A DNA stretch of 64,000 nt from Paracoccaceae bacterium (GTDB lineage: Bacteria; Pseudomonadota; Alphaproteobacteria; Rhodobacterales; Rhodobacteraceae), in contig JAQWSE010000012.1 in assembly GCA_029243395.1 (NCBI GenBank), positions 124,001-188,000 of the forward strand, written 5' to 3'. Below the pieces are notes generated by a model that was given only the letters and a program-made list of their open reading frames with translations, had not been told where the DNA came from and did no database searches. Below, piece after piece: positions 40,220 through 59,316 of the stretch; within the stretch, counting starts at the first letter, position 1; the number at the start of each line of letters is the position of its first letter. Made by a program: the position numbers and the translations under genes.

Positions 40220-42364
40220 ATGCCAGAGAAAAGGTTAGTACTTCTAGGGGGTGGTCATTCCCACATACTATTATTAAAAAAATTAGGGATGCGCCCTATA
40301 GAAGGGTTAATCACTTCCTTAGTTACCCCTGATGCTACGATGATTTACACTGGGATGCTCCCAGGTGCTATCATGGGTAATTATGAGCAGGAAGATATCC
40401 AAGTAGATTTAGTCAAACTTGCTAACTATGCAAACTCTAGGGTGATCTTTGACTCAGCTACGGGTCTCAATTTAGAAGAAAAGTATTTGATTTTAGAAAA
40501 ACGAAATCCATTAAGCTATGATATTCTTTCTATAGACATAGGGATTAATTATAGCCTGCTTAAGCTAAAGGGTTTTGAAGAATTTGTTCTACCTATAAAA
40601 CCTTTTAGAGATTTTATTTCTTCTTGGGAAAAGTTTTTAGCTAATTTAGGAGCTCCAGGCCAAGCACCTGCCATTACCTTAATAGGAGCAGGAGCTGCTG
40701 GATGTGAGTTAGCTTTGGCAATTAAGCTTAAATTAAAGACGTTAGGCCATATCCCAAGGATTACCTTACTAGATAGAGATACTATAGCGGCACATTTACC
40801 TATTAAGGCTCGAAAAAAACTTATCTCATATTTAAATGATAATAATGTAGTTTTAAAGGAGAATGCACATATTGCCTCTGTTTCGGAGAAAGTAGTTCAT
40901 TTTAAGGATGGAGAAGAAATAATTTCTGATTTAACAATCAGTACTGCCGGTGGACACCCACACGACTGGTTGTCGAATACCGAACTAAAATTAGATGAAG
41001 GTTTTGTTGAAACTTCCCCAAAGCTTCAAAGTAATTCACATGATTTTGTTTTTGCTTCTGGTGATTGCGCAGCAATTAAAGGTTATCCATTACAGAAGGC
41101 AGGTGTTTTTGCAGTTAGGGCATCATCAATTTTATACAAGAATCTGGGGAGATATTTGAATTCTCGAGTATTGCTCAATTATACCCCCCAAAAAAAATTT
41201 CTTCAGGCACTAACCGTTGGTTATAAAAAAGCGTTAATTTTCAGAGGCGCTAGCTGTGTATCTGGGTACATTCCTTGGCTTTACAAGAATTTTGTGGACA
41301 GATCATTTTTAAAGAAGTTTTCAGTAAGTATACCGATGAATTCTGGATTTGGTGATATAGCTGTTGAAGAAACCCAACCACTATGTGGTGCTTGTGGTGC
41401 TAAAGTCGGTGGTAAAGTCTTAGAAAGAGTTCTTGGAAAGTTGCCCTCTAACATACCAGAAATGACTAATAGAATTGGAGATGATGCTGCGGTCCTGAAC
41501 TTGACTGAATCCTTGAAGGTGCTAACGACTGATCACCTAAGAAAGTTTTGTAATGATCCATGGAAAATGGCAAAAATAACAGCAATTCATTCCTTGGGTG
41601 ATATATGGGCGATGGGAGCTGATCCGGTTGCAGTACTGAGCCACATCACTATCCCGGAAGGTTCACCGGAGGTTGAGGAAAATTATTTAACAGAGATCAT
41701 GGATGCTGCCAGAGGTACATTCTTAGCTGAAGGAGCTCAAATTGTTGGGGGACATACGAACAAGGGGGTAGAATTAGTAATAGGTTTCACTATTTTGGGT
41801 AATGTCAATGATAAACCAATAACTACTGAGGGAGCGTTGCCTACGGATAAGGTGGTCCTAACTAAACCAATAGGGGTAGGGACTATATTAGCTGGTGAAA
41901 TGCAAGGTTTGTCAAAAGGAACATGGATCAAAAATGCACATGACTGGATGATGCGATCTCAGAGGGAAATAGCAAGAATAATTGGACAGAAAGCTACAGC
42001 TATGACGGATATTACAGGGTTTGGTCTTGCTGGTCATTTAATGAAAATCTGTCAAGAATCCGATCTCGCCGTGAAATTATATTTAGACGAGTTGCCCGTC
42101 CTTGAAGGAGCTATGGAACTAGCTTCACGTGGTGTTAGGTCAACGCTTTTTGAAGAAAATTTAAATTATACCCCCCTGGTCAAGTGTTCACCAGGCCACA
42201 TTAAATGGCCTTTGCTTTTTGATCCACAAACTGCCGGGGGATTGTTAGCTTCAATACCTGAGAAAGATGTAAATATAGTTATTAGTAAGCTTAAGGAACA
42301 GGGGTTTTGTGGTTCAGTGGTCGGTGAATTTCTTGCTGGCAGACCCGAAATAAAAGTTAGCTGA
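40220..42364 (+). CDS. selD: Selenide, water dikinase fused to a pyridine nucleotide-disulfide oxidoreductase domain
   Basis: 714 residues. Residues 1 to about 370 are an NDH-2-like FAD/NAD(P) oxidoreductase (LVLLGGGHSHILLLKKLG at the start, 'ITLIGAGAAGCELALAI' near 155, VFASGDCAAI near 275). SelD follows from about residue 385: CGACGAK (Cys389, Cys392, Lys395) is the catalytic P-loop with Cys rather than Sec, then GDDAAVL and 'TDITGFGLAGHLMKI'. It makes selenophosphate. The same fusion is known from cyanobacteria and some proteobacteria. With only selU next to it, the product probably serves tRNA selenouridine synthesis. Its last 8 bases overlap the convergent selU end. Confidence 0.92.
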   Translation: MPEKRLVLLGGGHSHILLLKKLGMRPIEGLITSLVTPDATMIYTGMLPGAIMGNYEQEDIQVDLVKLANYANSRVIFDSATGLNLEEKYLILEKRNPLSYDILSIDIGINYSLLKLKGFEEFVLPIKPFRDFISSWEKFLANLGAPGQAPAITLIGAGAAGCELALAIKLKLKTLGHIPRITLLDRDTIAAHLPIKARKKLISYLNDNNVVLKENAHIASVSEKVVHFKDGEEIISDLTISTAGGHPHDWLSNTELKLDEGFVETSPKLQSNSHDFVFASGDCAAIKGYPLQKAGVFAVRASSILYKNLGRYLNSRVLLNYTPQKKFLQALTVGYKKALIFRGASCVSGYIPWLYKNFVDRSFLKKFSVSIPMNSGFGDIAVEETQPLCGACGAKVGGKVLERVLGKLPSNIPEMTNRIGDDAAVLNLTESLKVLTTDHLRKFCNDPWKMAKITAIHSLGDIWAMGADPVAVLSHITIPEGSPEVEENYLTEIMDAARGTFLAEGAQIVGGHTNKGVELVIGFTILGNVNDKPITTEGALPTDKVVLTKPIGVGTILAGEMQGLSKGTWIKNAHDWMMRSQREIARIIGQKATAMTDITGFGLAGHLMKICQESDLAVKLYLDELPVLEGAMELASRGVRSTLFEENLNYTPLVKCSPGHIKWPLLFDPQTAGGLLASIPEKDVNIVISKLKEQGFCGSVVGEFLAGRPEIKVS

Positions 42365-43418
42365 TTTTTTCTAAACGGCTCCTTTCCAAAATTTTTGATG
42401 CCACCCGGGTAACACTTTTTGAGTCACGGGGATTTATGCTGATACGATACCTTCTACTTGTTCCGTTATGGTTTGAAGAATTTCCATATCTAGGATCATA
42501 ATGCTCCGCCATAAGGCCTTGTGCTAAAAGTTGGAATTGGCTTTTTTTAACTAATTCTTGCCACGTAAGTAGTTGTTTTCTACTATGAAAATCACTCAAG
42601 AGTTTAATCTTCTGAAGTAAACCCTCAGGATTCTCATACAATTCGGGGTATTCACTAATAAGAAATTCAGCTCGATTCTCAATTTTTGCATATAATTCTA
42701 TATGAGTTGAGACTTTCATTTTTTGCCAAAGGCTTGGTGGTATTTTCAGATAACCTATTTGATTTGATTCAGATTCTAAAAAAATAGGACGGTGTACTGA
42801 AAAATTTTCCAGTAATGTTGCTATTTGGCTTTCAAATTCTTTTTGAGATGGTTGTCCTGATGGTCGGGAACCAAAAATTGATCCTCTATGATTGGCAAGT
42901 TCTTCAAGATCAATAACCTGTTGGCCGAGTTTTTTCAATTTTCCCAGAAGTTTTGTTTTTCCAGTTCCGGTGTAACCAGAAACTACTATGATGTTATGCT
43001 TAATGGGTTTTTCATATAATTTGTCTACTATCAACCTTCTGTAGGATTTGTACCCCCCTTCTAAAACGTGTGTTTGCCAACCTATTTCAGATAGAACTAT
43101 ACCTAAGGATTTCGACCTTTGACCACCTCTCCAACAATAAATCAGTACTGTCCACTGATCCTCTTTCTCAGCCAAGATTCCACTTAGATGCTTTGAAATA
43201 TTGTCAGAAACAAATCTTGCCCCAATTTTCTTTGCTTCAAATTTACTTTCTTGCTTGTAAAGCGTACCAACTACTTCACGTTCCTCATCTGACAAAACTG
43301 GTAGATTGATGGCATTTGGGATATGATCTTCCAAGTATTCTGCTGGTGACCTTACATCAATAATTGTATCGAATTGCTGGGGTGTTGTTGTCTGCAGTCG
43401 AAAATTTTCTATCTTCAT
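42357..43418 (-). CDS. selU: tRNA 2-selenouridine synthase
   Basis: 353 residues. The N-terminal rhodanese domain carries the catalytic Cys95 in IYCWRGGQRS; a P-loop GYTGTGKT follows at residues 148-155, as in SelU/MnmH (YbbB). The enzyme geranylates and then selenates 2-thiouridine at tRNA wobble position 34, using selenophosphate from SelD. selA and selB are not in the window, which fits an organism that uses selenium for tRNA modification only, though they could lie elsewhere. Also named mnmH. Confidence 0.93.
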   Translation of the reverse strand: MKIENFRLQTTTPQQFDTIIDVRSPAEYLEDHIPNAINLPVLSDEEREVVGTLYKQESKFEAKKIGARFVSDNISKHLSGILAEKEDQWTVLIYCWRGGQRSKSLGIVLSEIGWQTHVLEGGYKSYRRLIVDKLYEKPIKHNIIVVSGYTGTGKTKLLGKLKKLGQQVIDLEELANHRGSIFGSRPSGQPSQKEFESQIATLLENFSVHRPIFLESESNQIGYLKIPPSLWQKMKVSTHIELYAKIENRAEFLISEYPELYENPEGLLQKIKLLSDFHSRKQLLTWQELVKKSQFQLLAQGLMAEHYDPRYGNSSNHNGTSRRYRISINPRDSKSVTRVASKILERSRLEKIS

Positions 43419-45317: not shown

Positions 45318-46355
45318 TTAAGAAAATTCAGGCATCACTTCGTCAATAAAAAGTTTCAAAGATTTCTTCTGTTCTTCTTGCCCTAGCCCCATGCTAGCAT
45401 AATAGATGAAGTCATCTACACCCAGACTTTCATAATTTTTTAGCTTTGTGATAACTTCATCTGGGCTCCCGAATAAAAGATTTTGAGCAAGCATGTCAGA
45501 GTCATATTGTTCTCTTCCAACAAGTTGATTAAGTGGTATCTGTTTTGTAAAGCCGTTTTCAACGTCCCCAAGGTTCTTGAATAAGTTTTCAAATTGACCT
45601 AGTACCATTCGTATGGCCGTGAGTGCTTTCTCTTTATCTTCATCATTGGTATAAACCGCTGCGTGTCGCATCATAGCGAAAATTGGTTTGAAGTTTGATT
45701 GATTGTTCACAATAGCTTCATCTAGTTGCTTTTTATAGAGTTCTGCCTCTGAAAAGGGTCTAGTTAAAGGCCAGGACATTATATTACATTCATTTTTTAC
45801 AGCGTAATCAAAGGTAATTGGTGATCTGGCTGCTACCCAGATAGGCGGATGTGGTTTTTGAATTGGTTTAGGACAAGATGTTGATGCAGGGAATTGCCAG
45901 TACTCGCCATTGTGTTCTACATCACCTAGCCACAACTGCTTCAATAGTGGAAGCATTTCTTGCATGTATCGCCAGCCATCTTGCTGCTTCAATCCTGGTT
46001 TCATTCTATCAAACTCTCTTTGATAGGCCCCTGAGCCAATTCCAAATTCCAGCCTACCACCGCTAATTAGATCAGTGAATGCAGCTTCTCCTGCTAAGTT
46101 GATTGGGTGCCAATAAGCAGCATTAACAACAGCTGTGCCCAATCTTATTTTTTCTGTATGACTAGCCCACCAGGTTAATATTTGAAAAGGGTTTGGAGCA
46201 ATAGTCATTTCTATGGCATGATGCTCTGCTGCCCAAACAATGTTGAAGTTCCCTTGGTCTGCCATTTTCACCATATCAAGGGTATGTTTCTTGACATCCT
46301 CCATATTAGTTGAGGTGTCCATGCGCTCTAAATTGACAGCTAACTGGAATTTCAT
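45318..46355 (-). CDS. Luciferase-like FMN-dependent monooxygenase (LLM class)
   Basis: 345 residues from the ATG at 46355 (AGAGG about 10 bases upstream); a TTG seven codons earlier lies on that site. Luciferase-family marks: FQLAVNLE at the N-terminus, NIVWAAEHHAIEM, 'EKIRLGTAVVNAAYWHPINLAGEAA', 'SGGRLEFGIGSGAY' and LLFGSPDEVITKL. It uses reduced FMN and O2 and is not of the SsuD or RutA sequence type. It is the last gene of a minus-strand operon whose fusion protein contains a flavin reductase domain, the probable source of FMNH2. The other operon members are hydrolytic or detoxifying, so ring or C-N bond oxygenation is inferred. Confidence 0.85.
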   Translation of the reverse strand: MKFQLAVNLERMDTSTNMEDVKKHTLDMVKMADQGNFNIVWAAEHHAIEMTIAPNPFQILTWWASHTEKIRLGTAVVNAAYWHPINLAGEAAFTDLISGGRLEFGIGSGAYQREFDRMKPGLKQQDGWRYMQEMLPLLKQLWLGDVEHNGEYWQFPASTSCPKPIQKPHPPIWVAARSPITFDYAVKNECNIMSWPLTRPFSEAELYKKQLDEAIVNNQSNFKPIFAMMRHAAVYTNDEDKEKALTAIRMVLGQFENLFKNLGDVENGFTKQIPLNQLVGREQYDSDMLAQNLLFGSPDEVITKLKNYESLGVDDFIYYASMGLGQEEQKKSLKLFIDEVMPEFS

Positions 46356-46437
46356 TTGTAATAAACCTCTAATCAAAAAACTAAACTCGTCTCATTAAAT
46401 CGTATAGGATTTAAATTGGTCTGCAAACCTTTTCTGT

Positions 46438-47040
46438 TTATACACCGGCTGGATTTTCTACATCTCTACCAAGGCTTTTTAGATCGGAATACCTGTCACC
46501 AATTCTATGATGAGGCCTTCCCCCCGTTGCCGCGCCTAGGGCGGCAACTAATTCATTGCCTGCTGGCGCATCTGGAATTGAAAACTGTACAGTATGATAA
46601 TGAGATCTACGCCCAGTATCATCTTTGTCCATTAGTGGTATACAAATAGATGAATTTGCTGGACCTCTCGTATTAGTAAAGCCGAGGTAAGATTTTGCAT
46701 TGACTGCTTCGCGCAGGAAATTACCAAATTTGAGTGTATGAATTAATGCGGAGGCATGCTCGATCTCAGCGTCTACTCCCGCAACGGCGGCTTTACCATA
46801 TGCTTCCACTTCTTCACCAGATCCTATTATAGAAATTAGTTTGTTTGTTAATAGGTCTCCAAGAATAGGCGAAATTCGATTTATTTCAGGATAAAGGTCA
46901 TCTACAAACTCTTCCCCAATCCAAGGATTCTTAACTACGGCAGCAACACCTACTAACCTAAGTTCCTTTGGAGCCAGTTTGCCTCCCTCTACATTTATTA
47001 TTTCTTCATATGCTATTATTTTTCTTATATCAGTTAGCAT
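46438..47040 (-). CDS. 'Amino acid synthesis' family protein (PF06684-like)
   Basis: 200 residues. It matches my recollection of the AA_synth family: 'IRKIIAYEEIINVEGGKLAP' at the start, 'KNPWIGEEFVDDLYP', 'YGKAAVAGVDAEIEHASALIHT' and the C-terminal ALGAATGGRPHHRIGDR. The family has no firmly established reaction; it recurs beside LLM monooxygenases and amidohydrolases in heterocycle and amino-acid-like degradation clusters. GGAG lies 8 bases before the ATG. It is separated from the LLM gene by 82 bases and from the upstream fusion gene by 26. Confidence 0.8.
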   Translation of the reverse strand: MLTDIRKIIAYEEIINVEGGKLAPKELRLVGVAAVVKNPWIGEEFVDDLYPEINRISPILGDLLTNKLISIIGSGEEVEAYGKAAVAGVDAEIEHASALIHTLKFGNFLREAVNAKSYLGFTNTRGPANSSICIPLMDKDDTGRRSHYHTVQFSIPDAPAGNELVAALGAATGGRPHHRIGDRYSDLKSLGRDVENPAGV

Positions 47041-47066: not shown

Positions 47067-49157
47067 TCAAAGGACTTTTTTTACTGTGCCTTCTGTTTCA
47101 TTTCCCTGGTAAATTCCAAATCTCCCATGGTGATATTCTTCACAATAGCGTTTAATCATTGTTCTTTCAGCTAAGTTTTTTATTCTGTCTAACGGGATTT
47201 CTTCTAGGTTGAGGCTTACTGTGTTTTTATTTCCCCCGCCTGAAAATTTTCCATGGTAGAAGATCATGTGGACATTCATTTCTTGGTCTTCATAAACTGA
47301 ATAAAGGAAATCCAGGTTGAACATTAAGTTTAAGCTTTTTAGATAATCTTCTAATCCTAGCAGACTCTTATTATTACTTGGGGTCTTTGGCAATGATAGG
47401 TTATTTTCTCGATCTTTAATAAATAAAACCTGGCGATCATTCTCCAGAATTGCTCCTACCCGCGTGTTACTTTCTTTATTTACCATATTCACGAGAGAAT
47501 GCTCTAATCCTACTGAAAAGTAATCACCACGAAAATAACCAAGGGGGTTGCCTGGATGATGCAAATAATCTTCAATAAGACCAATCATTATAGCGTGATC
47601 TCCAATCTCCTGAAAGTTGGTTTTATGACATACAAAATGGGCTAAACATGAATCCAAAAGAGGTAAATCTCTTGAACCTTTTTTCCAGCTGGTTAAGTCA
47701 AATTTGTCAGTTCTTTGGGATGAAAATAACCCTGCAACAGCACGCTGTTTCTCGCTCAAAACATTGATTGCAAAACACTTGCTATCTCTAAAAATCTCAA
47801 AACTTTGGGCAGTCTTGGCAATGCATACAAGTAACATGGGAGGATCTAGAGAAACAGAAGAAAAGGAATTTGCAGTAAAGCCTCTAGGGACCCCATCCTT
47901 TTGATTGGTGGTCACAACCGTCACACCTGTTGCAAAGGTCCCAAACGCAGATCGAAGATCATTTTTATCTTTTTCAGATAGGGGTTCAGGATCGTTTTTA
48001 TATAAGTCTTCAACTTTTGTCTCACCAAGCCTTGGAGGGAATGAGAATTTTGGTTGCGGAAATTTACTAAAGTTAAGTGGGTTTCCAGCTACGCGCCAAG
48101 GTCGTGCTTCGGAGTTTGAAAATTTCATTTCCTCAATCATTGATCTGTTCATAACATGTGGATCTTCAAATATATCTTTGGCTGAGTTTAGAGGACCGAA
48201 TGGAACTAAGCCTCCAAGGAGAGATTTTAGCTCTAACTTAGTTTTTGATGAAGTCCAGCATTCAACGATAGCATTCAATACCTTTGAGTTTTTTTGTCTA
48301 TTTGCAATCGAAGAAAATCTTTGATCTGAAGATAGCCCCGGATCTTTCATGATCTTGGTTAAAACTCTCCAAAATGAATCATCAACTATGCCTAGTGCAA
48401 TAAAGCCATCCTTTGCTTTAAAGATCCCGAATGGCACAAGCAAAGGGTGTCCATTACCCTGCGGGCCCGGAATAGATCCGTCTAAATCATGTTGATAAAT
48501 TATCCTTTCGCAGAGGCTAATCACGGCATCATACATTGCCAAATCAATCAGCTGTCCTTTACCTGTTTTTTCAGCTTCTCGTACCGCTGCAATGATTCCA
48601 AAAGACATCATAAGCCCAGAGAAAATATCACCAACACCTGGCCCGACCTTGGTAGGAGCATTTTTTTTGGGTCCGGTTATCCCGATTAAACCACCCATTG
48701 CTTGCGCAACCACATCATAAGAAGGCCAATCCTTATAGGGACTTTCTCCTGAGAGCGGATGGCCAAATCCGCTAATGGCTGCGTACACTATTTTGTGATT
48801 AAGGCATCTGATCTTATCATATCCCAAGCCCATCTTTTCCATCACGCCTGGTCGGAAATTTTCTACCAAAACATCTGCAGATTTGACAAGTTTTAGTAGC
48901 TTTGCTTTTCCTGTATCTGTCTTTAAGTTTAGTAACAGGCTTTTCTTATTCCTATTGAGACTTACAAAATATCCTGACCATTCTTTTTTAATATCATCTT
49001 TTCGGAAAGGACCCGTTGCCCTGCTAGTATCACCGGACGGGCTTTCAATCTTAATCACTTCTGCTCCATGATCAGCAAGCATCATTGTACAGTAAGGGCC
49101 AGAAAGCATGCGGGTTAAATCTAACACTCGTAGACCTGATAATATTCCTGTTTTCAT
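47067..49157 (-). CDS. Three-part fusion: CaiB/BaiF CoA-transferase, flavin reductase, Nudix-like C-terminus
   Basis: 696 residues in one open frame. Residues 1 to about 390 are a class III CoA-transferase (LRVLDLTRMLSGPYCTMMLADHGAEVIKIE, NRNKKSLLLNLK, 'VGPGVGDIFSGL' with the expected catalytic Asp near 180). Residues about 400-560 are an FMN-reductase-like split barrel (LRSAFGTFATGVTVVTT, GFTANSFSSVSLDPPMLLVCI, GDHAIMIGLIEDY). Residues about 568-690 start VGAILENDRQVLFIKD and look like a Nudix fold without a Nudix box. The reductase should feed FMNH2 to the LLM enzyme of the same operon. I know no standard family with this order. No sign of a frameshift or of two joined genes at the junctions. 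Confidence 0.85.
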   Translation of the reverse strand: MKTGILSGLRVLDLTRMLSGPYCTMMLADHGAEVIKIESPSGDTSRATGPFRKDDIKKEWSGYFVSLNRNKKSLLLNLKTDTGKAKLLKLVKSADVLVENFRPGVMEKMGLGYDKIRCLNHKIVYAAISGFGHPLSGESPYKDWPSYDVVAQAMGGLIGITGPKKNAPTKVGPGVGDIFSGLMMSFGIIAAVREAEKTGKGQLIDLAMYDAVISLCERIIYQHDLDGSIPGPQGNGHPLLVPFGIFKAKDGFIALGIVDDSFWRVLTKIMKDPGLSSDQRFSSIANRQKNSKVLNAIVECWTSSKTKLELKSLLGGLVPFGPLNSAKDIFEDPHVMNRSMIEEMKFSNSEARPWRVAGNPLNFSKFPQPKFSFPPRLGETKVEDLYKNDPEPLSEKDKNDLRSAFGTFATGVTVVTTNQKDGVPRGFTANSFSSVSLDPPMLLVCIAKTAQSFEIFRDSKCFAINVLSEKQRAVAGLFSSQRTDKFDLTSWKKGSRDLPLLDSCLAHFVCHKTNFQEIGDHAIMIGLIEDYLHHPGNPLGYFRGDYFSVGLEHSLVNMVNKESNTRVGAILENDRQVLFIKDRENNLSLPKTPSNNKSLLGLEDYLKSLNLMFNLDFLYSVYEDQEMNVHMIFYHGKFSGGGNKNTVSLNLEEIPLDRIKNLAERTMIKRYCEEYHHGRFGIYQGNETEGTVKKVL

Positions 49158-49159
49158 CT

Positions 49160-49978
49160 TTAAATTGATCCAATTTTTGTGAATTGTCGTAGAAATTTTC
49201 TTAAAATAGAGCCAAATTGGTTCGGATCCTCTACTAAGGCCATATGCTTTAAATTCTTTATAATGTGTAGTTGGCTTTGGTCTATTTCTTTTGCTATCTT
49301 TTTACTCATTTCCGGGCCATTGCCATAATCCTGATCTGCTGTAATGACTAAAGTTGGGCAGCTGATAGGTGGTTGTGGATTTATAATCTCTTCCAAGTCA
49401 TATGCCAAGATCTTATAAATCTTGGGATAGATGCTAGGATCATTGCCAATAATCCATTCCTTAACTTTATTAATTATCATAGGATTTTCTTCTTCAAATT
49501 TCTCACTGAACCATCTTTTGATTGCAGCAGATACCGTTGCCGCAGGACCAGACTGCTGGGACAGGGATACTCTTGCCTCTATTAATTCTTGCTGTTCTTT
49601 AGATCGAGTATGAGGGGAGTTAATTATTATTAACCCTTCTACGAGTTCCGGAAAATCCTGTGCAAACCGCCTTATTATCATTCCGCCTAATGAAAAACCT
49701 ACCAAGATAATCTTTTCAAAGTTGCAGTGATCTATCAATTCTTTTATCTGATCAGAAAACATTCTTAAGGAGGGAATTTTCTCAGGTAAGAGGCTTTCCC
49801 CATGTCCAAAAAGGTCGTAGGTAATGATGGTAAATTCTTGTTCTAGCTCTTTTGGAAGCCATTGCCACATTTCTCCTTTCAAACCCAAACCGTGAACAAA
49901 AATGAGAATCTTATTACTAGCAACTCCTCGTAATTGAAATTTAGTGCCTTTGGGGGTAAAGGATGACATTCTAGACAC
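49160..49978 (-). CDS. Alpha/beta hydrolase (RutD / enol-lactonase-like)
   Basis: 272 residues (GTG at 49978; the ATG at 49969 is a fair alternative). The fold is clear: FVHGLGLKGEMW (oxyanion region), nucleophile Ser in VGFSLGGMI (about residue 103), 'TLVITADQDYGNG' with the acid, and catalytic His in 'LKHMALVEDP' (about 247). Relatives hydrolyse enol-lactones, esters or carbamates; RutD, of the pyrimidine pathway, has the same build. It lies 2 bases before the fusion gene and 7 after ridA in the same direction. Confidence 0.88.
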   Translation of the reverse strand: MSRMSSFTPKGTKFQLRGVASNKILIFVHGLGLKGEMWQWLPKELEQEFTIITYDLFGHGESLLPEKIPSLRMFSDQIKELIDHCNFEKIILVGFSLGGMIIRRFAQDFPELVEGLIIINSPHTRSKEQQELIEARVSLSQQSGPAATVSAAIKRWFSEKFEEENPMIINKVKEWIIGNDPSIYPKIYKILAYDLEEIINPQPPISCPTLVITADQDYGNGPEMSKKIAKEIDQSQLHIIKNLKHMALVEDPNQFGSILRKFLRQFTKIGSI

Positions 49979-49985
49979 TCGATAC

Positions 49986-50381
49986 CTATGAAAAATTTTG
50001 AGGTTTGTAAGCTATGACCTCTATTTCAACCCGAACATCCACTAGTAAATCATTTACCACAGCCGATCTTGCAGGAGGTTCATTTTTGAAATATTCACTA
50101 TAGATTTCATTGAAACCCGGAAAGTCATTTTTGTCCTTAAGCCAAACCATAGATTTAACAACATTATCCAGTGAACAATTTGCTAATTCTAGGGTCTTTT
50201 TGATTTCTTCAATCACTATTCTGGTTTGATCCTCTATCGATCCGCTTGTCATAACGAGGCCCTCTTTCATAGGTACTTGCCCTGTACAAAAGATATAATC
50301 TCCAGCCTGTACAGCTCGCGAGAGAGATAATTGTCTTCCATTAATAATAATGGGATCTCCTAAGGGTTGTTTTTTTTTCAT
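49986..50381 (-). CDS. RidA/YjgF family enamine/imine deaminase
   Basis: 131 residues, normal for the family. 'SRAVQAGDYIFCTGQVPM' near residue 17, 'QTRIVIEEIKKTLELANCSLDNVVKSMVWL' and the C-terminal PPARSAVVNDLLVDVRVEIEVIAY with the conserved Arg that binds carboxylates are visible. RidA proteins hydrolyse reactive enamines or 2-aminoacrylate; RutC in the pyrimidine pathway deals with an aminoacrylate intermediate. It is the first gene of the minus-strand operon, divergent from the aldehyde dehydrogenase. Confidence 0.92.
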   Translation of the reverse strand: MKKKQPLGDPIIINGRQLSLSRAVQAGDYIFCTGQVPMKEGLVMTSGSIEDQTRIVIEEIKKTLELANCSLDNVVKSMVWLKDKNDFPGFNEIYSEYFKNEPPARSAVVNDLLVDVRVEIEVIAYKPQNFS

Positions 50382-50512: not shown

Positions 50513-51994
50513 ATGACTGAAGTGCAAAAATATCAAATGCTCATTGATGGAAGCTGGACTAGCGGGATCGATGGAAAGTTTTTTGAAAGTGTCAATCCTT
50601 ATACTGGCAGGGTCTGGTGCAGGGTTCCGGAGGCAAACTCTCAAGATGTAAATTCTGCTGTAGAGGCTGCGCATAAAGCTTTTTCCAGGGGACCTTGGTC
50701 TAAAATGACTCCGACTGAGAGAGGACGGTGTTTGAGACGGCTAGCTGATCTACTTTCTGAAATGTCTGAACCTCTAGGTAAGATAGAAACTATTGATACC
50801 GGAAAAATGCTCAAAGAAACTCGATGGCAAGCAAAGTATATAGCAGAGTTCTTCCATTTTTATGCTGGTTGCGCTGACAAAATTAGCGGAGAAACTTTAC
50901 CAATAGATAAACCAGACTTGTTTGTTTTTACTGAACGTGAACCATTAGGGGTGGTGGCTGCAATAGTACCATGGAACTCTCAATTGTTCTTAGTTGCTGT
51001 CAAATTAGGACCCGCTCTTGCGGCAGGGAATACAGTCGTATTGAAAGCTTCTGAGCATGCCTCTGCGGCAATGTTAGAATTTGGAAAGCTTGTTGAAAAA
51101 GCTGGGTTTCCTCCTGGAGTTGTAAATATCATTACGGGCCATGGGGATCCTTGCGGCAAGGAATTAACTTCTCACCCTTTAGTCGCGCGTATTTCCTTTA
51201 CTGGAGGGCCAAGGTCAGCTCAAAACATCATTAAGAATTCTGCTGAGAACTTTGCGGAAGTTTCTCTTGAATTGGGAGGTAAGTCACCGTTCATAGTTTT
51301 TGAAGATGCAAATCTGGAAAGTGCAGTTAACGGATCTATTGCAGGAATTTTTGGAGCGACTGGTCAAAGTTGTGTGGCAGGATCTAGGTTGTATTTGCAT
51401 GAAAATATAGCTGAGAAATTTCTTGAAAAAATGTTAGAGATTGTCCGCTCCATAAATATGGGTGATCCCCTTGAGGAGGCAACTCAAATGGGCCCCTTAT
51501 GCACTATGGGACAAATTGAGAATATTGAAAACGAATTAAAAACAGCAAAATCCCAGGGTGGACAGCTTCTGTGTGGTGGAAATAGGCCAGAAAATTTAGA
51601 AGGTTATTTTTTCCAACCTACTATAATTTCTTGTCCTGATCATTCTTTAAAGATAGTAGATACTGAACTTTTTGGTCCTGTTTTAAGCGTGTTAACCTTT
51701 CGAGAGGAAGAGGAAGCCATAAATCTAGCGAATGACACAAAACATGGTCTTGCAGCTGGCATATTCAGTGAAAATAGCGCTCGGTCTATGCGTGTTGCTA
51801 AGTCTGTCAAGGCAGGTATAGTTTGGGTTAACACTTATCGGGTTGTATCACCAATAGCCCAATTTGGAGGGTTTAAAGGTTCTGGCTATGGAAGGGAAAG
51901 TGGTTTTCAGGCAATGTATGATTATACTCGTCCAAAAACAATTTGGTTAAATACATCAAATGAGCCAATGAGCAATCCTTTTGTGATGCGTTGA
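50513..51994 (+). CDS. NAD-dependent aldehyde dehydrogenase (trimethylaminobutyraldehyde/betaine aldehyde type)
   Basis: 493 residues. Catalytic Cys287 in GATGQSCVAGSR and Glu253 in SLELGGKSP are in place, with 'GVVAAIVPWNSQLFL' and the closing PIAQFGGFKGSGYGRESG. AGGAGGTTACAAC-type spacing is GGAGG 9 bases before the ATG. It heads the carnitine operon, so oxidation of 4-trimethylaminobutyraldehyde to gamma-butyrobetaine is the best guess; other omega-amino aldehydes are possible. The 131-base gap to ridA must hold both divergent promoters; TACAAT at 50450-50455 is a -10 candidate. Confidence 0.88.
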   Translation: MTEVQKYQMLIDGSWTSGIDGKFFESVNPYTGRVWCRVPEANSQDVNSAVEAAHKAFSRGPWSKMTPTERGRCLRRLADLLSEMSEPLGKIETIDTGKMLKETRWQAKYIAEFFHFYAGCADKISGETLPIDKPDLFVFTEREPLGVVAAIVPWNSQLFLVAVKLGPALAAGNTVVLKASEHASAAMLEFGKLVEKAGFPPGVVNIITGHGDPCGKELTSHPLVARISFTGGPRSAQNIIKNSAENFAEVSLELGGKSPFIVFEDANLESAVNGSIAGIFGATGQSCVAGSRLYLHENIAEKFLEKMLEIVRSINMGDPLEEATQMGPLCTMGQIENIENELKTAKSQGGQLLCGGNRPENLEGYFFQPTIISCPDHSLKIVDTELFGPVLSVLTFREEEEAINLANDTKHGLAAGIFSENSARSMRVAKSVKAGIVWVNTYRVVSPIAQFGGFKGSGYGRESGFQAMYDYTRPKTIWLNTSNEPMSNPFVMR

Positions 51995-52041: not shown

Positions 52042-52845
52042 GTGGCCCACGGAATAGAAGTGAATAAGTCGGGAAGAGTACTAGAGGTTTGTCTCGACAG
52101 ACCGAAGGTAAATGCTATTGATGTAAAGATGAGTCAAGAGTTAGGTAGGGCTTTTGCGGAACTCAGAGATAACAAGGACCTATGGGTAGGCATTTTAACT
52201 GCTAAAGGAGAAAAAATTTTTTCAGCAGGCTGGGATCTTAAGGCTTTGAATTCTGGGGAGATGTCTTTGGAAAATTGGTGGGAAACATCAGATTATGGAG
52301 ATGGAGGATTCGCTGGATTAACTGAGAACTGGAATTTGAACAAACCAGTCATAGGAGCGTTAAATGGGTTAGTTATTGGAGGAGGCTTTGAATTAGCTCT
52401 TGGCTGTGATCTTTTATTAGCTGCAGAACATGTTGAATTTGGCTTGCCTGAAATGCCCCTTGGCATCGTTCCAGATGCTGGAGCTCTTCAGCGCCTGCCA
52501 CGAACAATACCCTATAATATTGCGATGGAGATGTTCTTACTAGGCCGAAGAATGTCCGCCATTGAGGCTAAGCATTATGGTCTTATCAATAAGATAGTGA
52601 AATCTGAAAATTTACTAGATGAGGCGCGCGAATGGGCTAATAAGATAGCGTCATCTGCGCCCTTAGCAATGCAAAGTGTAAAAGAAGTGTTGAGAGCTAT
52701 AGAATGCCACCCATTAGAGGAAGCGTTTTCTAAGATGCGAAAAGATGATTTAGTAACTTACAAAAAAATGTTGAGTTCTAAGGATGCGGAGGAAGGTATA
52801 GCAGCGTTTGTTGAGAGAAGAGATCCCAATTTTAAAGGTGAGTAA
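52042..52845 (+). CDS. caiD: Carnitinyl-CoA dehydratase (crotonobetainyl-CoA hydratase)
   Basis: 267 residues from a GTG at 52042 with AGGAG upstream. Beyond the crotonase fold it shares the specific CaiD blocks: CLDRPKVNAIDVK, FSAGWDLKALN (residues 60-70), GGFAGLTENWNLNKPVIGALNG, GGGFELALG and FGLPEMPLGIVPDAG. The C-terminal EGIAAFVERRDPNFKG also matches. CaiD interconverts crotonobetainyl-CoA and L-carnitinyl-CoA. Here it would run in the hydrating direction between the acyl-CoA dehydrogenase and carnitine dehydrogenase. It shares its last base with the next gene's first base (TAATG). Confidence 0.9.
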   Translation: MAHGIEVNKSGRVLEVCLDRPKVNAIDVKMSQELGRAFAELRDNKDLWVGILTAKGEKIFSAGWDLKALNSGEMSLENWWETSDYGDGGFAGLTENWNLNKPVIGALNGLVIGGGFELALGCDLLLAAEHVEFGLPEMPLGIVPDAGALQRLPRTIPYNIAMEMFLLGRRMSAIEAKHYGLINKIVKSENLLDEAREWANKIASSAPLAMQSVKEVLRAIECHPLEEAFSKMRKDDLVTYKKMLSSKDAEEGIAAFVERRDPNFKGE

Positions 52846-53792
52846 TGGACCTAATAGATATAAAAAATGTAAAAACTGTTTGCAGCATTGGAGGGGGGCC
52901 AATTGGTGCGGGTTGGGCAGCCTTTTTTTTAGCTCAAGGTCTTTCTGTCAAAGCCTATCTTCATTCCGAGAGAGAAGAAAAAGACTATTATTCAATGATT
53001 GAGACTGCTTGGATTTCTCTAGAAAAGCTACATAATTTGGGTAGTATTAATCGAAATTCAATACAAATCAGCACCAACTTAGAGAATGCGGTTGAAAATG
53101 CACAATTCATTCAGGAAAATGCACCAGAAATTTTATCCTTAAAACAAGATCTTTATGCTCGCCTAGGAAATATTGTTTCTAGTGAAGTAGTAATTTGTTC
53201 TTCCACTTCTGGTTTGATGATGACAGACATTCAAGCTCATTGTGCAACACCCGAGAGAACTGTTGTTGGACATCCCTTTAATCCACCATATCTGCTGCCA
53301 TTAGTAGAAATAGTTGGGGGGGAGAAAACAAATTCAGAGGCGGTTATATGGGCAAGAAATTTTTATAAATATGTTGGCAAGGTTCCTTTGGTCATGAACA
53401 AAGAAATTCCTGGCTTTGTTGCGACCCGACTGCAAGAGGCTTTATGGAGAGAGGCTTTGCATATGGTAGCTCATGACGAGGCAACTCCTGAACAAATAGA
53501 TGAAGCCCTGATGAATGGCCCAGGCCCTAGAATGGCAATCCAAGGACAGTGCCTTGCATTTCACGTTGCGTGTGGTGCAGGAGGTATGGCCACGAACTTG
53601 GATCAGTTTGGGCCTGCTTTGAAATTACCTTGGACAAGATTGACGGCACCAGAATTGACTAAGAAATTAAGGGACACTATGGTTTCAGGCTGTGATGAAA
53701 TTACGAAAGGTCGGGACTTTAAAAGTCTAGCTGCGGAAAGAGACAGAAAAATTGTGGAGATAATTAAGATTCAAAAAGCCCATGTTTCATAG
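52845..53792 (+). CDS. lcdH: L-carnitine dehydrogenase
   Basis: 315 residues with the 3-hydroxyacyl-CoA dehydrogenase fold. NAD motif GGGPIGAGWAAFFLAQG (residues 16-32), FIQENAPE, SSTSGLMM and HPFNPPYLLPLVEIVGGE with catalytic His143. The 'EALWREALHMV' and 'FGPALKLPWTRLTAPELT' stretches are what distinguish carnitine dehydrogenases from ordinary 3-hydroxyacyl-CoA dehydrogenases. There is no fused thioesterase domain as in some homologues. Its product, 3-dehydrocarnitine, is the substrate of the BKACE enzyme encoded 33 bases downstream. Confidence 0.9.
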   Translation: MDLIDIKNVKTVCSIGGGPIGAGWAAFFLAQGLSVKAYLHSEREEKDYYSMIETAWISLEKLHNLGSINRNSIQISTNLENAVENAQFIQENAPEILSLKQDLYARLGNIVSSEVVICSSTSGLMMTDIQAHCATPERTVVGHPFNPPYLLPLVEIVGGEKTNSEAVIWARNFYKYVGKVPLVMNKEIPGFVATRLQEALWREALHMVAHDEATPEQIDEALMNGPGPRMAIQGQCLAFHVACGAGGMATNLDQFGPALKLPWTRLTAPELTKKLRDTMVSGCDEITKGRDFKSLAAERDRKIVEIIKIQKAHVS

Positions 53793-53825: not shown

Positions 53826-54710
53826 ATGAACTTTGAGGTAGTCATAACATGCGCTGTCACAGGTGCTGGAGATACAGTAGGGAAGAGTAATAAGGTTCCA
53901 ATTACCCCTAAAGAAATAGCCGATGCTGCAATCGATGCTGCCAAAGCTGGAGCTACCTCGGTACATTTACATGTTAGAGACCCTGAAACTGGTCAAGGTT
54001 CCAGAGATCCAAAGTTGTTCAAGGAGGCTGTGGATAGGGTTCGAGATGACGAACATGATGTGATCATTAATTTAACAGCTGGAATGGGTGGGGACTGGGT
54101 CCTTAACCCCAATAAACTGACCGAACCAGCTCCCGGCACCGATATAATCAGTGCTGAGGAGAGATTGGCTCACGTTAAGGAATGTTTGCCAGAAATTTGT
54201 TCTATAGATTGCGGTACTATGAATTTTGGCAACGGAAACGAGATTTATATATCAACTCCACCATTTTTGAGAGAAATGGCTCAGTTGACACAGAAGTGGG
54301 GGGTCAAACCAGAGCTAGAGGTTTTTGATCTAGGACACATTAGGTTTGCTAAGGAAATGATTAAAGAGGGGTTGGTTGACGAACCTCCTTTATTTCAAAT
54401 TTGTTTAGGGATCCCATGGGGAGCTGAACAATCAGTTGATACTATGAAGGTTATGAAGGATCACTTACCAGCAAATTGTTTTTGGGCGGGATTTGGTATT
54501 TCCCGCATGCAAATGCCGATGGTAGCTGCAGCGGTAACTTTAGGAGGAAATGTTCGAGTGGGACTCGAGGACAATTTGTACTTAGAAAAAGGGGTTTTGG
54601 CTTCAAATGCAGACCTAGTTACTAAGGCTAAGGGTATCGTTGAACTCATGGGTGCTAAAGTTTTGACCCCAGAAGAAGCCAGAAAAAAGTTTAATCTGAA
54701 AAAAAAGTGA
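53826..54710 (+). CDS. Beta-keto acid cleavage enzyme (3-dehydrocarnitine:acetyl-CoA type)
   Basis: 294 residues, BKACE (DUF849) TIM barrel. Zinc ligands His47 and His49 in VHLHVRDP; '[10 protein letters not shown]', [20 protein letters not shown] and VGLEDNLYL complete the family pattern. The N-terminus [19 protein letters not shown] is that of carnitine-cluster members. It would convert 3-dehydrocarnitine and acetyl-CoA to betainyl-CoA and acetoacetate. AGGAGG lies 7 bases before the ATG. Confidence 0.92.
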
Positions 54711-54748: not shown

Positions 54749-55909
54749 TTGGATCAAGTTCTAAACCAAGAAAATGCTCTCCTGCTCACGACAGTTAGGA
54801 AATTCCTAGAAGAAGAAATTTTACCATACGAGGATGAAGTTGATAAGACTGGTGAAGTTAACCCTGAATTAGGAAAACAAATTGAAAAACGAGCTAAAGA
54901 GATAGGGCTGTTTGCTGCCAATTTACCCACTGAAGTGGGTGGGGGGGGGTTGGATTATCGCTCAATGATGGTCTTGGAAAGAGAGTACGGAAAAACTTCT
55001 CATGCATTACATTCCTGGATCGCTCGGCCTACTGAGATTCTGCTTGCGTGCGATGAAGAGCAAAGACAAGAGTTCCTCTATCCATGTGTTAGGGGGGAGA
55101 AGCGAGAGTTATTTGCTTTAACTGAACCTGGAGCGGGTTCAGACGTGATGGGAATGAAATCAAATGCTGTAAAGGATGGGGATGATTGGGTGTTAAATGG
55201 ATCTAAACACTTCATATCAGGGCCCTGTATGCCTGATTTCGCGATAGTTTTTGCGGTAACTGGTGAGGACAAGACAAAGAGAGGTATTCGAAAAAGAATT
55301 ACTGCTTTTTTGGTGAATCGAGGTGAAAAAGGCTTCGATATAAAGGAAGGCACCAAGTGTGTAAGCTATCGAGGATACAAAACTTTTGCGCTAAATTTTG
55401 ACGATGTAAGGCTTTCCAAGAGAACGGTTCTTGGAAAAGAAGGGGAAGGTTTGAAGTTATCGGGTAAATGGTTAGGCATGGGACGTATATGGGTCGGTGC
55501 TTCCTGTTGTGGAAAAGCCGAACGTATGATTAGTCTAGCATCGGAGTGGGCCGCAGATAGAAAACAATTTGGCCAACCTATTGGAAAATTTCAAGGAATA
55601 GGTTTTCGTTTAGCCGACATGGCAGTAGGGTTAAGAGCTGCCGATTTAATGGTCAATGATGCCGTAGATAAAGCAGAAAATAAAATTATGAAAGATGAGG
55701 ATGCTGCCATGGTAAAGCTGTTTTGCTCAGAAATGGTTAACAAGGTTGCTGATGATACTGTCCAAATTTTTGGAGGTATGGGTCTGATGGAGGAAATGCC
55801 TATCCAAAGATTGTGGAGAGATAGTCGTTTAGAGCGAATTTGGGATGGCACATCGGAAATACAGCGACATATAATTGCCAGATCAATTTTACGACCTCTC
55901 GGGGCATGA
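54749..55909 (+). CDS. Acyl-CoA dehydrogenase with Asp at the usual catalytic Glu position
   Basis: 386 residues from a TTG at 54749 with AAGGAG 10 bases upstream. ALTEPGAGSDVMG and 'NGSKHFISG' are the FAD/substrate blocks. The catalytic-base motif YEGT reads WDGTSEIQR (Asp366). It probably oxidises gamma-butyrobetainyl-CoA to crotonobetainyl-CoA, the role expected between the CoA-activating enzymes and CaiD. A run of nine G (54941-54949) encodes GGG in a flexible N-terminal loop, a slippage-prone tract. The stop overlaps the next start by ATGA. Confidence 0.87.
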   Translation: MDQVLNQENALLLTTVRKFLEEEILPYEDEVDKTGEVNPELGKQIEKRAKEIGLFAANLPTEVGGGGLDYRSMMVLEREYGKTSHALHSWIARPTEILLACDEEQRQEFLYPCVRGEKRELFALTEPGAGSDVMGMKSNAVKDGDDWVLNGSKHFISGPCMPDFAIVFAVTGEDKTKRGIRKRITAFLVNRGEKGFDIKEGTKCVSYRGYKTFALNFDDVRLSKRTVLGKEGEGLKLSGKWLGMGRIWVGASCCGKAERMISLASEWAADRKQFGQPIGKFQGIGFRLADMAVGLRAADLMVNDAVDKAENKIMKDEDAAMVKLFCSEMVNKVADDTVQIFGGMGLMEEMPIQRLWRDSRLERIWDGTSEIQRHIIARSILRPLGA

Positions 55910-57999
55910 GACGAAATCAAAACAAAAATTTAGACCGCTTATTGAAACCTTCACAAATTGCTTTCATTGGAGGTTCTGATGCGAAGGTGGCAATTAATGA
56001 AGCAGTGCGTCGGGGTTTTACCGGATCGATTTGGCCAGTAAATCCCACGCGACATGATATGGCCGGTTACAAATGTTACAAATCAGTCTTGGATCTACCA
56101 TTTGGTCCGGATGCAGTTTTTCTGGCTATTCCTGCCAACAAAGTTCTTAAAACCATAAATGAACTTCGTGAAGTCTCAGCAGGTGGAATAGTCTGCTATA
56201 CAGCAGGTTTTCGGGAGACAGGCCTTCAAGGTGTTTTAATGGAAAGGGAACTCATAAAGGACCTAGGTGAAATGGTTATGGTTGGGCCAAATTGTTATGG
56301 AGTCATAAATTATTTGGAGAAATATGCTTTATGGCCATTTGAACATGGTGGATACTGTCCAGGCTATGGAGCTGCCATAATTACTCAGAGTGGAATGCTT
56401 TCTTCCGATATTACTATGAGCCAAAGATCCTTACCTATGACACACATGATATCCTTAGGTAACCAGGCATCGTTAAAAAACACTGATTTTATAAATCATT
56501 TGGTTGATTCCAGGCCAGTTAGGGCATTTGGACTTCATATTGAGAGTATAGAAGATCTTCAGGAATTCGAAATGGCTGCACTGCAAGCCTTAAAAGCAAA
56601 AAAACCTATCGTGGTTCTAAAAACTGGAACATCCCAAATCGGGGCAGGTCTTACAGAAAGTCATACAGGATCTTTCGCAGGATCACATGAAATGTATAAC
56701 GCCTTCTTTGAACGATTAGGTATAATAACTGTAAAAACTCCATCAGAGTTAATTGAAACACTAAAATTTATATGTGTTTCGGGTGTCCCTGCAGGTAAAA
56801 AATGTGCAGCTTTTACGTGTTCCGGTGGAGGTGCCACCCTTGTAGCAGATTTTGGAGAAGGGCTGGGCTTAGAATTTCCTGGATTTTCTCAGGTTGATGC
56901 TAAGGTCGTGTCTAAGCTTTTACCGGCTATAGCAACAGTCTCTAACCCCCTTGACTATACTACGCCTATTTGGGGGAAGAAAGAATTTACAAAACCACTT
57001 TTTTCTAAGGTTTTAGAAAAACTAGAGGTTGATTGTACGTTAATGGTGCAAGACTATCCACTAACTGGTTTTGACAACACGAAAGTACATTATTTAGCAG
57101 ATGGCGGAGCTTTCGCAGAAGCTGCTTTAGGACACGGAGTCCCGGGTGCAATTGTTTCAACAATTTCAGAAAATATAGATGAACAGACTAGAGAGGTTTT
57201 CTTGTCTAAGGGCATCGCGCCTTTACAAGGCCTAGCAGATGCTCTTCAAGCTATAGCCAAAACAGGCTCATGGGGTCTTAATCGAAAGAAGATTTTAGAT
57301 AGGCTTAGACTGTCTTTGCCCCAGGAATTGCCCTTAAGAAAATTTTCTTACTTAAACGAATGGGAAGCTAAGGTTTTAATATCTGGTCAAGGTATTAGCG
57401 TTCCAAAAGGGTTAAAGTCTAATAGAAAAGATATTGTGAGGAATGCCAGTCAAATAGGTTTTCCGCTTGCGGTAAAACTCATGAGCAAAGATTTAATTCA
57501 TAAAACTGAAATCGGGGCAGTACAATTAAATGTTAAAAATGAAATGCAGCTAAAAAGGGCTGTTTATAGTATAACGGATAACCTCAAGCGTTACAAAGAT
57601 AAATATGATTCAAATTCTTTCTTGTTAGAAGAAATGGTCCCTGAGCCCATTTGTGAATTAATTATAGGTATAAAACGTGACCCGCATTTTGGTCTTGCCC
57701 TGACGCTGGGTTCTGGGGGTATTTTTGCCGATTTAATTAACGATTATCAGTTGCTGCTTTTACCTGCCCATCGAGAGGAAATTTTACAAAAGATTTTGGT
57801 CTTGAAGGTTGGTAAGATAATAGATGGTTTTAGGGGGCTTACAGGATCCAGATTGAATATGGTGGCTGATTGCATTGATAAGTTAGTCATGTTTGTTTCA
57901 AACAATGAGTCTCGAATTATAGAACTCGAGATTAATCCGCTATATATTTTTGAAGAAAAGGTCATAGCCATTGATACCTTGCTGGCCAGAGAAGATTAA
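55906..57999 (+). CDS. ADP-forming acyl-CoA synthetase (acetate--CoA ligase family)
   Basis: 697 residues from the ATG at 55906, which overlaps the dehydrogenase stop; the frame runs further up inside that gene. Order: CoA-binding domain (IAFIGGSDAKVAINEAVRRGF, 'VNPTRHDMAG'), succinyl-CoA-ligase-like domains with the phospho-His in ESHTGSFAGS (His253), and an ATP-grasp domain from about residue 475 (FPLAVKLMSKDLIHKTEIGAV, 'LTLGSGGIFADLI'). It can activate a carboxylate at the cost of ATP to ADP. In this operon it may replace the AMP-forming CaiC as betaine:CoA ligase. Confidence 0.88.
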   Translation: MRRNQNKNLDRLLKPSQIAFIGGSDAKVAINEAVRRGFTGSIWPVNPTRHDMAGYKCYKSVLDLPFGPDAVFLAIPANKVLKTINELREVSAGGIVCYTAGFRETGLQGVLMERELIKDLGEMVMVGPNCYGVINYLEKYALWPFEHGGYCPGYGAAIITQSGMLSSDITMSQRSLPMTHMISLGNQASLKNTDFINHLVDSRPVRAFGLHIESIEDLQEFEMAALQALKAKKPIVVLKTGTSQIGAGLTESHTGSFAGSHEMYNAFFERLGIITVKTPSELIETLKFICVSGVPAGKKCAAFTCSGGGATLVADFGEGLGLEFPGFSQVDAKVVSKLLPAIATVSNPLDYTTPIWGKKEFTKPLFSKVLEKLEVDCTLMVQDYPLTGFDNTKVHYLADGGAFAEAALGHGVPGAIVSTISENIDEQTREVFLSKGIAPLQGLADALQAIAKTGSWGLNRKKILDRLRLSLPQELPLRKFSYLNEWEAKVLISGQGISVPKGLKSNRKDIVRNASQIGFPLAVKLMSKDLIHKTEIGAVQLNVKNEMQLKRAVYSITDNLKRYKDKYDSNSFLLEEMVPEPICELIIGIKRDPHFGLALTLGSGGIFADLINDYQLLLLPAHREEILQKILVLKVGKIIDGFRGLTGSRLNMVADCIDKLVMFVSNNESRIIELEINPLYIFEEKVIAIDTLLARED

Positions 58000-58149
58000 A
58001 AACTTCAGCTTTCCAGCTATACAATTTCTACGGAAAAGGTTGCTTTGAGACCACGATTTATTGGTAAAGATTACTTTGCATTAATGATCTTATAATTATT
58101 TCATCTAATTAATTCTTTATTGGATAAATTTTTTAGGTTAGCTTGGCTT

Positions 58150-59316
58150 ATGAGAGCATTTGAGGGAATTCGGGTATTAGATCTCACCCATGTTTTTGCG
58201 GGTCCTTTTTGTACCTTTCAGTTGGCAGTAATGGGTGCAGATGTAATCAAGATTGAATCGCCTGATTTTCCCGACATGATGAGAGATGAAGGAAACTCAG
58301 AAGCTTTAAATGAATTGGGCCTTAGCAACTTTTTTGTTTGTCAGAATAGTGAAAAAAAATCGCTCTCACTGAATTTGAAATCAGACGATGATCGAGAATT
58401 TTTTCTTAAATTAGTTAGAACTGCTGATGTTCTAGTTCAAAATTATTCTGGCAAGGCTATGGAAAGATTAGGCTTTTCATATAAGAAACTCAAAAAAATA
58501 AATCCTAAGCTCATTTACTGCTCAATGACTGGATTTGGTAAAACAGGACCAAAAGCTGAACACCCTGCCTATGACTCGGTCATTCAGGCTTATTCTGGTT
58601 TGATGGAATTAAATGGTTTGAAAAGTATCGGCCCTCTGCGCGTGGGACCCGCTATAGTTGATTATGGTACGGGTATTCATGCAGCGTTTGCAATTTCATC
58701 GGCACTTTTCAGACGAGAAATTACTGGAGAAGGATTAGAGATTGATCTTTCAATGTTGGATGCGGCTTTTATGCTGATGACCTCCACAGTTTCAGATACA
58801 CTAGCTTCCGGAATCTCAAAACCAAGTTATGGAAATAATCACCCGGATTATGCAGGCTATGGTGCTTATAACACAAGTGATCGAATGATCGTAATAGGAG
58901 CTTTTACAAAAAAACAGCTAAAAAATTTGTTTTTGGCTTTGGATTTGACGGAACAGGCAGAACGAATTTTTACTATGAGTAAGGCGGAGATCAAAGATAA
59001 TAATTTTAGGTTCAGAACTTTAATAGAAAATGCGATAAAAACAAATACTGCAGATTATTGGGAGACAAAACTGAATTCTTTTCATGTCCCAGCAGCCAAA
59101 GTACGCACCCTAGTGGAGGCTTTAGCAAGCGATCAAGTCAAATCCAGACAGGTGTTACAGAATTCACTACTGGCGGAGCATCCTGATCAGCCGGTTCTTT
59201 TGCCTACCGCAGCTTTTTCTTATTCTCAGGGAGCTCCAAGGATTACGAAGGCAGCCCCAAAAATGGGAAGAAATGACGGGCAAATAAAGAAAGAAGTATA
59301 TGATTCTTTAGATTAA
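58150..59316 (+). CDS. CaiB/BaiF-type class III CoA-transferase
   Basis: 388 residues from the ATG at 58150 (MRAFEGIRVLDLTHVFAGPF); a TTG ten codons earlier has no ribosome site. NSEKKSLSLNLKS, 'VLVQNYSGKAMERLGF' and VGPAIVDYGTGIHAA (expected catalytic Asp near 174) fit the family. It would exchange CoA between gamma-butyrobetaine, carnitine and other betaines. Because no thioesterase is encoded nearby, betainyl-CoA could be its CoA donor. A TATAAT at 58091-58096 is a possible -10 of its own promoter in the 150-base gap. Confidence 0.87.
   Translation: MRAFEGIRVLDLTHVFAGPFCTFQLAVMGADVIKIESPDFPDMMRDEGNSEALNELGLSNFFVCQNSEKKSLSLNLKSDDDREFFLKLVRTADVLVQNYSGKAMERLGFSYKKLKKINPKLIYCSMTGFGKTGPKAEHPAYDSVIQAYSGLMELNGLKSIGPLRVGPAIVDYGTGIHAAFAISSALFRREITGEGLEIDLSMLDAAFMLMTSTVSDTLASGISKPSYGNNHPDYAGYGAYNTSDRMIVIGAFTKKQLKNLFLALDLTEQAERIFTMSKAEIKDNNFRFRTLIENAIKTNTADYWETKLNSFHVPAAKVRTLVEALASDQVKSRQVLQNSLLAEHPDQPVLLPTAAFSYSQGAPRITKAAPKMGRNDGQIKKEVYDSLD

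Follow-up and report, generated by a model that had tools for sequence, protein, structure and literature searches.

The window, a 64,000-nucleotide stretch of a Paracoccaceae bacterium genome, carries at 47067-49157 on its minus strand a single unbroken open reading frame of 696 codons. The 696-residue product comprises, in order, a class III CoA-transferase, an HpaC-type flavin reductase and a C-terminal Nudix-fold domain that lacks the Nudix box. The CoA-transferase domain (residues 1-380; 48018-49157, minus strand) matches Pfam CoA_transf_3 (PF02515) over residues 6-379 with an E value of 2.9e-117 and 392 bits against a cutoff of 23.3, and its best PDB matches are formyl-CoA transferase and the CaiB/BaiF family. 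Its GDxxxG motif, kept in all 13 aligned fused sequences, contains D177 (48627-48629), which we take to be the catalytic aspartate of class III CoA-transferases. A linker (residues 381-398; 47964-48017, minus strand) leads into the reductase domain (residues 399-555; 47493-47963, minus strand), which matches Flavin_Reduct (PF01613) over residues 406-549 (E 4.1e-37; 128 bits, cutoff 27). The motifs GFTANSF (residues 426-432) and G519-D520-H521 are invariant in 21 of 21 sequences, the GDH triplet presumably being the functional motif of HpaC-type reductases. Residues 556-696 and the stop codon (47067-47492, minus strand) make up the tail, and no third Pfam family is listed for the protein at E values up to 1. 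The earlier note on this DNA had drawn the same coordinates and the same three domains from the sequence, and both stand: one frame, two Pfam families, and a tail recognized by fold and profile. An AlphaFold2 model of the full-length protein was poor (pLDDT 63, pTM 0.40) and uninformative on domain packing.

A sequencing error joining two neighbouring genes would suit an assembly of 2.49 Mb in 13 contigs whose close relatives are metagenome-assembled genomes. The probability of such an artefact is, however, negligible, since the uninterrupted frame recurs in independent genomes. Eight of 12 genomes of the genus match, each with a long open frame of 701-744 residues in which all three domains were verified; the remaining four, which gave no match, have a completeness of 66-77%. 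The stop or frameshift between domains of which the earlier note had warned is found in none of the eight. Outside the genus, the architecture it had proposed to look for occurs in five genomes of four further genera (G047, G044, G054, G414 and G247) and on the complete plasmid pW43B (NZ_CP033221.1) of the isolate Parasedimentitalea marina. We therefore rejected an assembly join and take the fusion to be genuine and kept among marine Rhodobacteraceae. The plasmid-borne protein is publicly annotated only as 'CoA transferase' (WP_127751231.1). A literature search whose coverage stopped short of most subscription journals and of all preprints returned no description of the architecture, in keeping with the earlier remark that no family with this domain order was known.

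The reductase and its Nudix-fold tail

The sequence of PDB entry 3rh7 aligns with residues 397-694 of the window protein (E 1.5e-56); the reductase and tail together are thus an already solved two-domain protein, SMa0793 of Sinorhizobium meliloti 1021. This pair is usually unfused and found in LLM-monooxygenase clusters: in a scan of the order, the tail was present in 63 of 292 genomes, in frames shorter than 500 residues in 53 and in longer frames in 10, five of which have a CoA-transferase in front and five an alpha/beta hydrolase. A reductase family scan, matching 135 of 149 genomes, returned mostly tail-less reductases and served only as a source of loci.

To the tail itself (residues 558-696, with 26 related sequences as input) AlphaFold2 gave a model of pLDDT 89.6. 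By Foldseek against the PDB, its best match was the NUDIX hydrolase 3cng of Nitrosomonas europaea (TM 0.76), followed by 3rh7 (TM 0.72). A tail profile run over 385 genomes of the class returned 27 matches, comprising 11 reductase-tail relatives and 16 weak matches (E 2e-8 to 6e-4), 15 of which have an open reading frame with a Nudix box at most 900 bases from the locus centre. The fold of Nudix hydrolases is present and their box, GX5EX7REUXEEXGU, is not; its RExxEE core was found in none of 72 tails, the window's included. From the fold match and a profile that reaches frames with a Nudix box, the tail is Nudix-derived and, wherever examined, lacks the catalytic box, as the first reading of its start had suggested. 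A Nudix fold whose nearest solved structure is a NUDIX hydrolase might still be an active enzyme, for instance one converting FAD to FMN for the reductase. With RExxEE missing from every tail and the box columns unconserved, we consider this very improbable and rejected it.

By analogy, the tail would most likely be regulatory, acting through the binding of a nucleotide or a pathway substrate. The precedent is DBC1, whose noncatalytic Nudix domain is predicted to bind NAD metabolites and to regulate a partner protein (PMC5389931). The word 'flavin' is absent from that paper's main text, and a search for literature combining flavin reductase and Nudix gave nothing relevant among the results listed.

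The gene cluster around the fusion

The fusion is the third of the cluster's five minus-strand genes. It is preceded by a RidA/Rid-family protein (49986-50381; TIGR00004, E 2.1e-27, 95.8 bits against a cutoff of 106) and an alpha/beta hydrolase resembling 3-oxoadipate enol-lactonase (49160-49978; Abhydrolase_1, E 1.2e-26; NCBIfam PcaD, 148 bits against 256), the latter directly upstream with a gap of 2 nt. It is followed by an AA_synth/DUF1185 protein (46438-47040; PF06684, E 1.6e-62; PDB 2qtp and 3byq) and an LLM-class flavin-dependent monooxygenase (45318-46376; Bac_luciferase, E 6.5e-50), the presumed client of the reductase.

A divergent operon on the plus strand opens with an aldehyde dehydrogenase (ALDH; 50513-51994; Aldedh, E 2.6e-163), followed by a CaiD-like enoyl-CoA hydratase (52042-52845; ECH_1; crotonobetainyl-CoA hydratase NCBIfam, 291 bits against 500), a carnitine-dehydrogenase-like member of the 3-hydroxyacyl-CoA dehydrogenase family (52845-53792; L-carnitine dehydrogenase NCBIfam, 290 bits against 414) and a beta-keto acid cleavage enzyme (BKACE; 53826-54710; PF05853, E 2.5e-98). 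Further along are an acyl-CoA dehydrogenase (54749-55909; Pfam Acyl-CoA_dh), an ADP-forming acyl-CoA ligase family protein (55840-57999; Succ_CoA_lig, ATP-grasp_5 and CoA_binding) and a second, stand-alone class III CoA-transferase (58120-59316; PF02515), which shares 39-40% identity with the fused domain across about 250 residues; the operon also has ABC transporter solute-binding and permease genes. Since the hydratase, dehydrogenase, BKACE and both CoA-transferases all score under the NCBIfam equivalog cutoffs, the operon may be called carnitine-like by family only. Searches for literature on carnitine with BKACE, and on carnitine with LLM and RidA, gave nothing relevant in the results listed. 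Elsewhere in the window, a 714-residue protein with Pyr_redox_2 and AIRS/AIRS_C domains (40220-42364, plus strand), read as a fusion of a SelD-like protein and an oxidoreductase, lies tail to tail with MnmH, a tRNA 2-selenouridine synthase (42357-43418, minus strand).

In 25 inspected reductase loci, which were chosen, many for being fused, and are not a random sample, an LLM monooxygenase occurs in 22, an ALDH in 23, an alpha/beta hydrolase in 23 and a DUF1185 gene in 21. In the window, the fused reductase and the LLM gene lie on the same strand, one gene apart. An LLM protein 58-72% identical to the window's is present in five of six other genomes tested; in G247 the LLM gene lies elsewhere in the genome and not beside the fusion. 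This cluster context lends good support to the view that the reductase belongs to a two-component LLM monooxygenase, as the earlier note had supposed in naming the LLM enzyme its likely client. Loci of the CoA-transferase-fused clade typically have RidA and the carnitine-like operon as well, and so does the unfused Aminobacter cluster. BKACE chemistry releases acetoacetate, which fits an acetoacetate-CoA ligase gene further along in the Aminobacter cluster. A GlxA-family regulator is found in both the P. marina and the Aminobacter clusters. For DUF1185, a structure paper proposed a role in amino-acid metabolism from other neighbourhoods (PMC2954203); the word 'monooxygenase' is absent from its main text.

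Two further loci (L156, 7415-11953; L155, 7280-11243) carry a related ALDH-LLM-DUF1185-hydrolase cluster, which in L156 is adjoined by a 182-residue flavin reductase without a Nudix tail. On P. marina pW43B, genes for the delta, alpha and gamma subunits of sarcosine oxidase (L145, 1049-4870) lie beside the fusion cluster. Sarcosine oxidase was considered as a clue to the pathway product and set aside, the other flanks examined having given only a weak 25% match, in L155, which is not a fusion flank.

Origin and maintenance of the fusion

We built a midpoint-rooted tree of 72 reductase-tail sequences, excluding the too-divergent L062, dropping identical or nearly identical rows and retaining the doubtful L064, in which the hydrolase part is truncated. 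One group, with support of 100/99, unites 15 CoA-transferase fusions, the hydrolase fusions of genomes G151 and G065 and an unfused Aminobacter protein. The last, encoded in a syntenic cluster on pSR3, is the first branch of the group on this rooting; within the group some branches have weak support, and the nesting of G151 and G065 is not firmly supported. The CoA-transferase label changes three times on the tree, two of the changes being forced by starred branches, and the simplest account is one gain and two losses. For the hydrolase label there are six changes, four of them forced; among its nine rows, L064 is doubtful. The tree thus indicates that, in other lineages, this reductase has more than once become joined to an alpha/beta hydrolase.

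A tree of the CoA-transferase domain split the fused sequences (20 rows, with G000, G247, G047 and G054 present twice or more) from the stand-alone ones with support of 100/100, only 12 stand-alone sequences being included. In the order scan, at E values up to 1e-80, the five matches at or above roughly 60% identity, one of them from the window's own genome, are all fused, and the remaining five are stand-alone at 40-44% identity. Two of three neighbourhoods among these stand-alone enzymes (L142 and L143) adjoin an enoyl-CoA hydratase, which is weakly consistent with a role of the CaiB-CaiD type. Neither in that scan nor in G151 and G065 did we see an unfused or split CoA-transferase relative at 60% identity or more: in the two genomes, the best near-full-length matches are 36% and 38% identical, with one partial match of 44% in G065. 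The stretch in G151 holds RidA, the hydrolase-reductase fusion, DUF1185, ALDH, LLM, hydratase, dehydrogenase and BKACE genes, and that in G065 RidA, the hydrolase-reductase fusion, DUF1185, ALDH and LLM. By parsimony, a single origin of the CoA-transferase fusion is most likely. It would have arisen once, in a Rhodobacteraceae lineage in which the CoA-transferase gene lay next to that of the reductase, upstream and in frame.

These relatives bear on what the fusion might be for. The CoA-transferase could be held beside the reductase and the LLM monooxygenase, allowing the product of oxygenation to be activated right where it forms, and one polypeptide in five genera of the scans, with all domains conserved and no unfused CoA-transferase seen at 60% identity or more, would fit such channelling. 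However, genomes G151 and G065, whose hydrolase fusions group with the CoA-transferase fusions, keep reductase, LLM and ALDH without a close CoA-transferase, and the LLM gene is unlinked to the fusion in G247. Moreover, HpaC-type reductases usually hand over free flavin, for which no contact is required. We therefore regard channelling as decidedly unlikely. Such coupling of oxygenation to product activation is what the earlier note had proposed; the switching between hydrolase and CoA-transferase partners and the relatives that lack the CoA-transferase both weaken it.

Alternatively, the fusion could be neutral or a matter of expression level, with a stop codon lost between overlapping neighbours, the product tolerated and the attached enzyme set by gene order. 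In the unfused Aminobacter locus (L065), the hydrolase (11117-11932) and reductase (11929-12909) genes do overlap by 4 nt, and the six changes of the hydrolase label show such fusions gained or lost repeatedly. Against this, no split CoA-transferase fusion was seen, repeated origin may itself reflect selection, and all domains are kept at low dN/dS in the better-resolved comparisons. Estimated per domain by the Nei-Gojobori method, dN/dS between the window and L044 is 0.078 for the CoA-transferase, 0.135 for the reductase and 0.136 for the tail. The other usable values range from 0.02 to 0.33, with several pairs saturated; the higher ones are 0.205 for the reductase (window and L008) and 0.33 for the tail (L126 and L050, with hardly any changes). 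The low values in the better-resolved pairs indicate that all domains are maintained, and we consider a neutral fusion unlikely. A separate observation concerns L064 (11359-12918) on pSymA of S. meliloti R11, where a hydrolase frame runs into the reductase to give 519 residues with the hydrolase part truncated, either a fusion or decay.

A separately made reductase is unlikely in the window: within 45 codons before the reductase core, five of 13 fusions, including this one, have no in-frame ATG, GTG or TTG. The other eight (L010, L011, L013, L046, L050, L063, L124 and L126) carry one or more such codons near the beginning of the reductase, either within those 45 codons or at the first core residues, from which the reductase may also be translated separately; in the P. 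marina fusion (L063), an ATG stands where the unfused reductase starts.

Proposed function and comparison with known systems

We consider it somewhat probable that the fusion is a bifunctional polypeptide serving one catabolic pathway, its two halves being made in equal amounts. Every activity in this scheme, the electron transfer to the LLM enzyme, the regulation by the tail, the class of substrate and the benefit of fusion are what we infer. The middle domain would reduce flavin with NAD(P)H and pass it to the LLM monooxygenase of the cluster, while the tail, a catalytically dead Nudix-derived domain, would tune the reductase by binding a nucleotide or a pathway substrate. The N-terminal domain would load CoA onto an acid made by the pathway, to be processed by the CaiD-like hydratase, the carnitine-dehydrogenase-like enzyme and BKACE. 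The cluster as a whole probably degrades a nitrogen-containing compound. In a workable scheme, the LLM enzyme would oxygenate an amine or N-heterocycle, ALDH and the hydrolase or RidA would yield an amino acid-type C4 acid, and CoA transfer, hydration, oxidation and BKACE cleavage would follow. The simplest benefit of fusion would be that two enzymes of the pathway are made at a fixed 1:1 ratio.

A more elaborate, and distinctly doubtful, idea is that of a gated unit, in which the catalytically dead Nudix domain responds to an NAD-type metabolite or to the pathway substrate by opening electron flow to the LLM enzyme, and the CoA-transferase captures the product acid; elsewhere a hydrolase would take the same seat, the N-terminus of the reductase being where the next enzyme of an oxygenase pathway docks. 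If so, costly and peroxide-prone flavin reduction would run only when CoA activation can follow. Returning to the bifunctional polypeptide, the results add a conserved three-domain architecture that is publicly hidden under 'CoA transferase', show that a single flavin-reductase family has durably kept a box-less Nudix tail and that the pathway enzyme joined to this reductase differs from lineage to lineage. They also link the DUF1185 family, whose name refers to amino-acid synthesis, with oxygenase operons and make a catabolic cluster experimentally approachable.

Among the closest known systems, SMa0793 (3RH7, titled only 'putative oxidoreductase') has the same reductase and box-less Nudix-fold tail, but at 321 residues it lacks the N-terminal CoA-transferase of the window protein; a search for SMa0793 to SMa0796 in the literature found nothing. 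The reductase of p-hydroxyphenylacetate 3-hydroxylase (5ZC2, 5ZYR) is likewise of the HpaC type with a C-terminal extension, and window residues 400-563 match it. The likeness stops at the end of the reductase domain, the extension there being MarR-like and regulatory whereas the window tail is Nudix-like. With DBC1-type Nudix domains the tail shares a fold without catalysis, in a different host protein. Known class III CoA-transferases (formyl-CoA transferase, CaiB and succinyl-CoA:mesaconate CoA-transferase, NF041294) match the fused domain as a family; it falls below the equivalog cutoffs listed (best 391 of 700 bits), and those enzymes are not fused to a reductase.

At the level of the cluster, the Rut, trigonelline (TgnAB) and pyridine ring-opening systems combine an LLM monooxygenase, a flavin reductase and a hydrolase, with RidA in Rut. 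The window cluster resembles them in gene content, and DUF1185, the CoA-transferase and the carnitine-like operon are extra; of 29 NCBIfam matches to the window LLM protein, the 25 listed do not include RutA. Literature searches on homarine and trigonelline turned up ecology (PMC8269262) and no gene set usable for comparison. The catabolism of L-carnitine and gamma-butyrobetaine shares the CaiD, carnitine dehydrogenase and BKACE families with the divergent operon; here, however, the members lie below the equivalog cutoffs, and the module of LLM monooxygenase and reductase is an addition.
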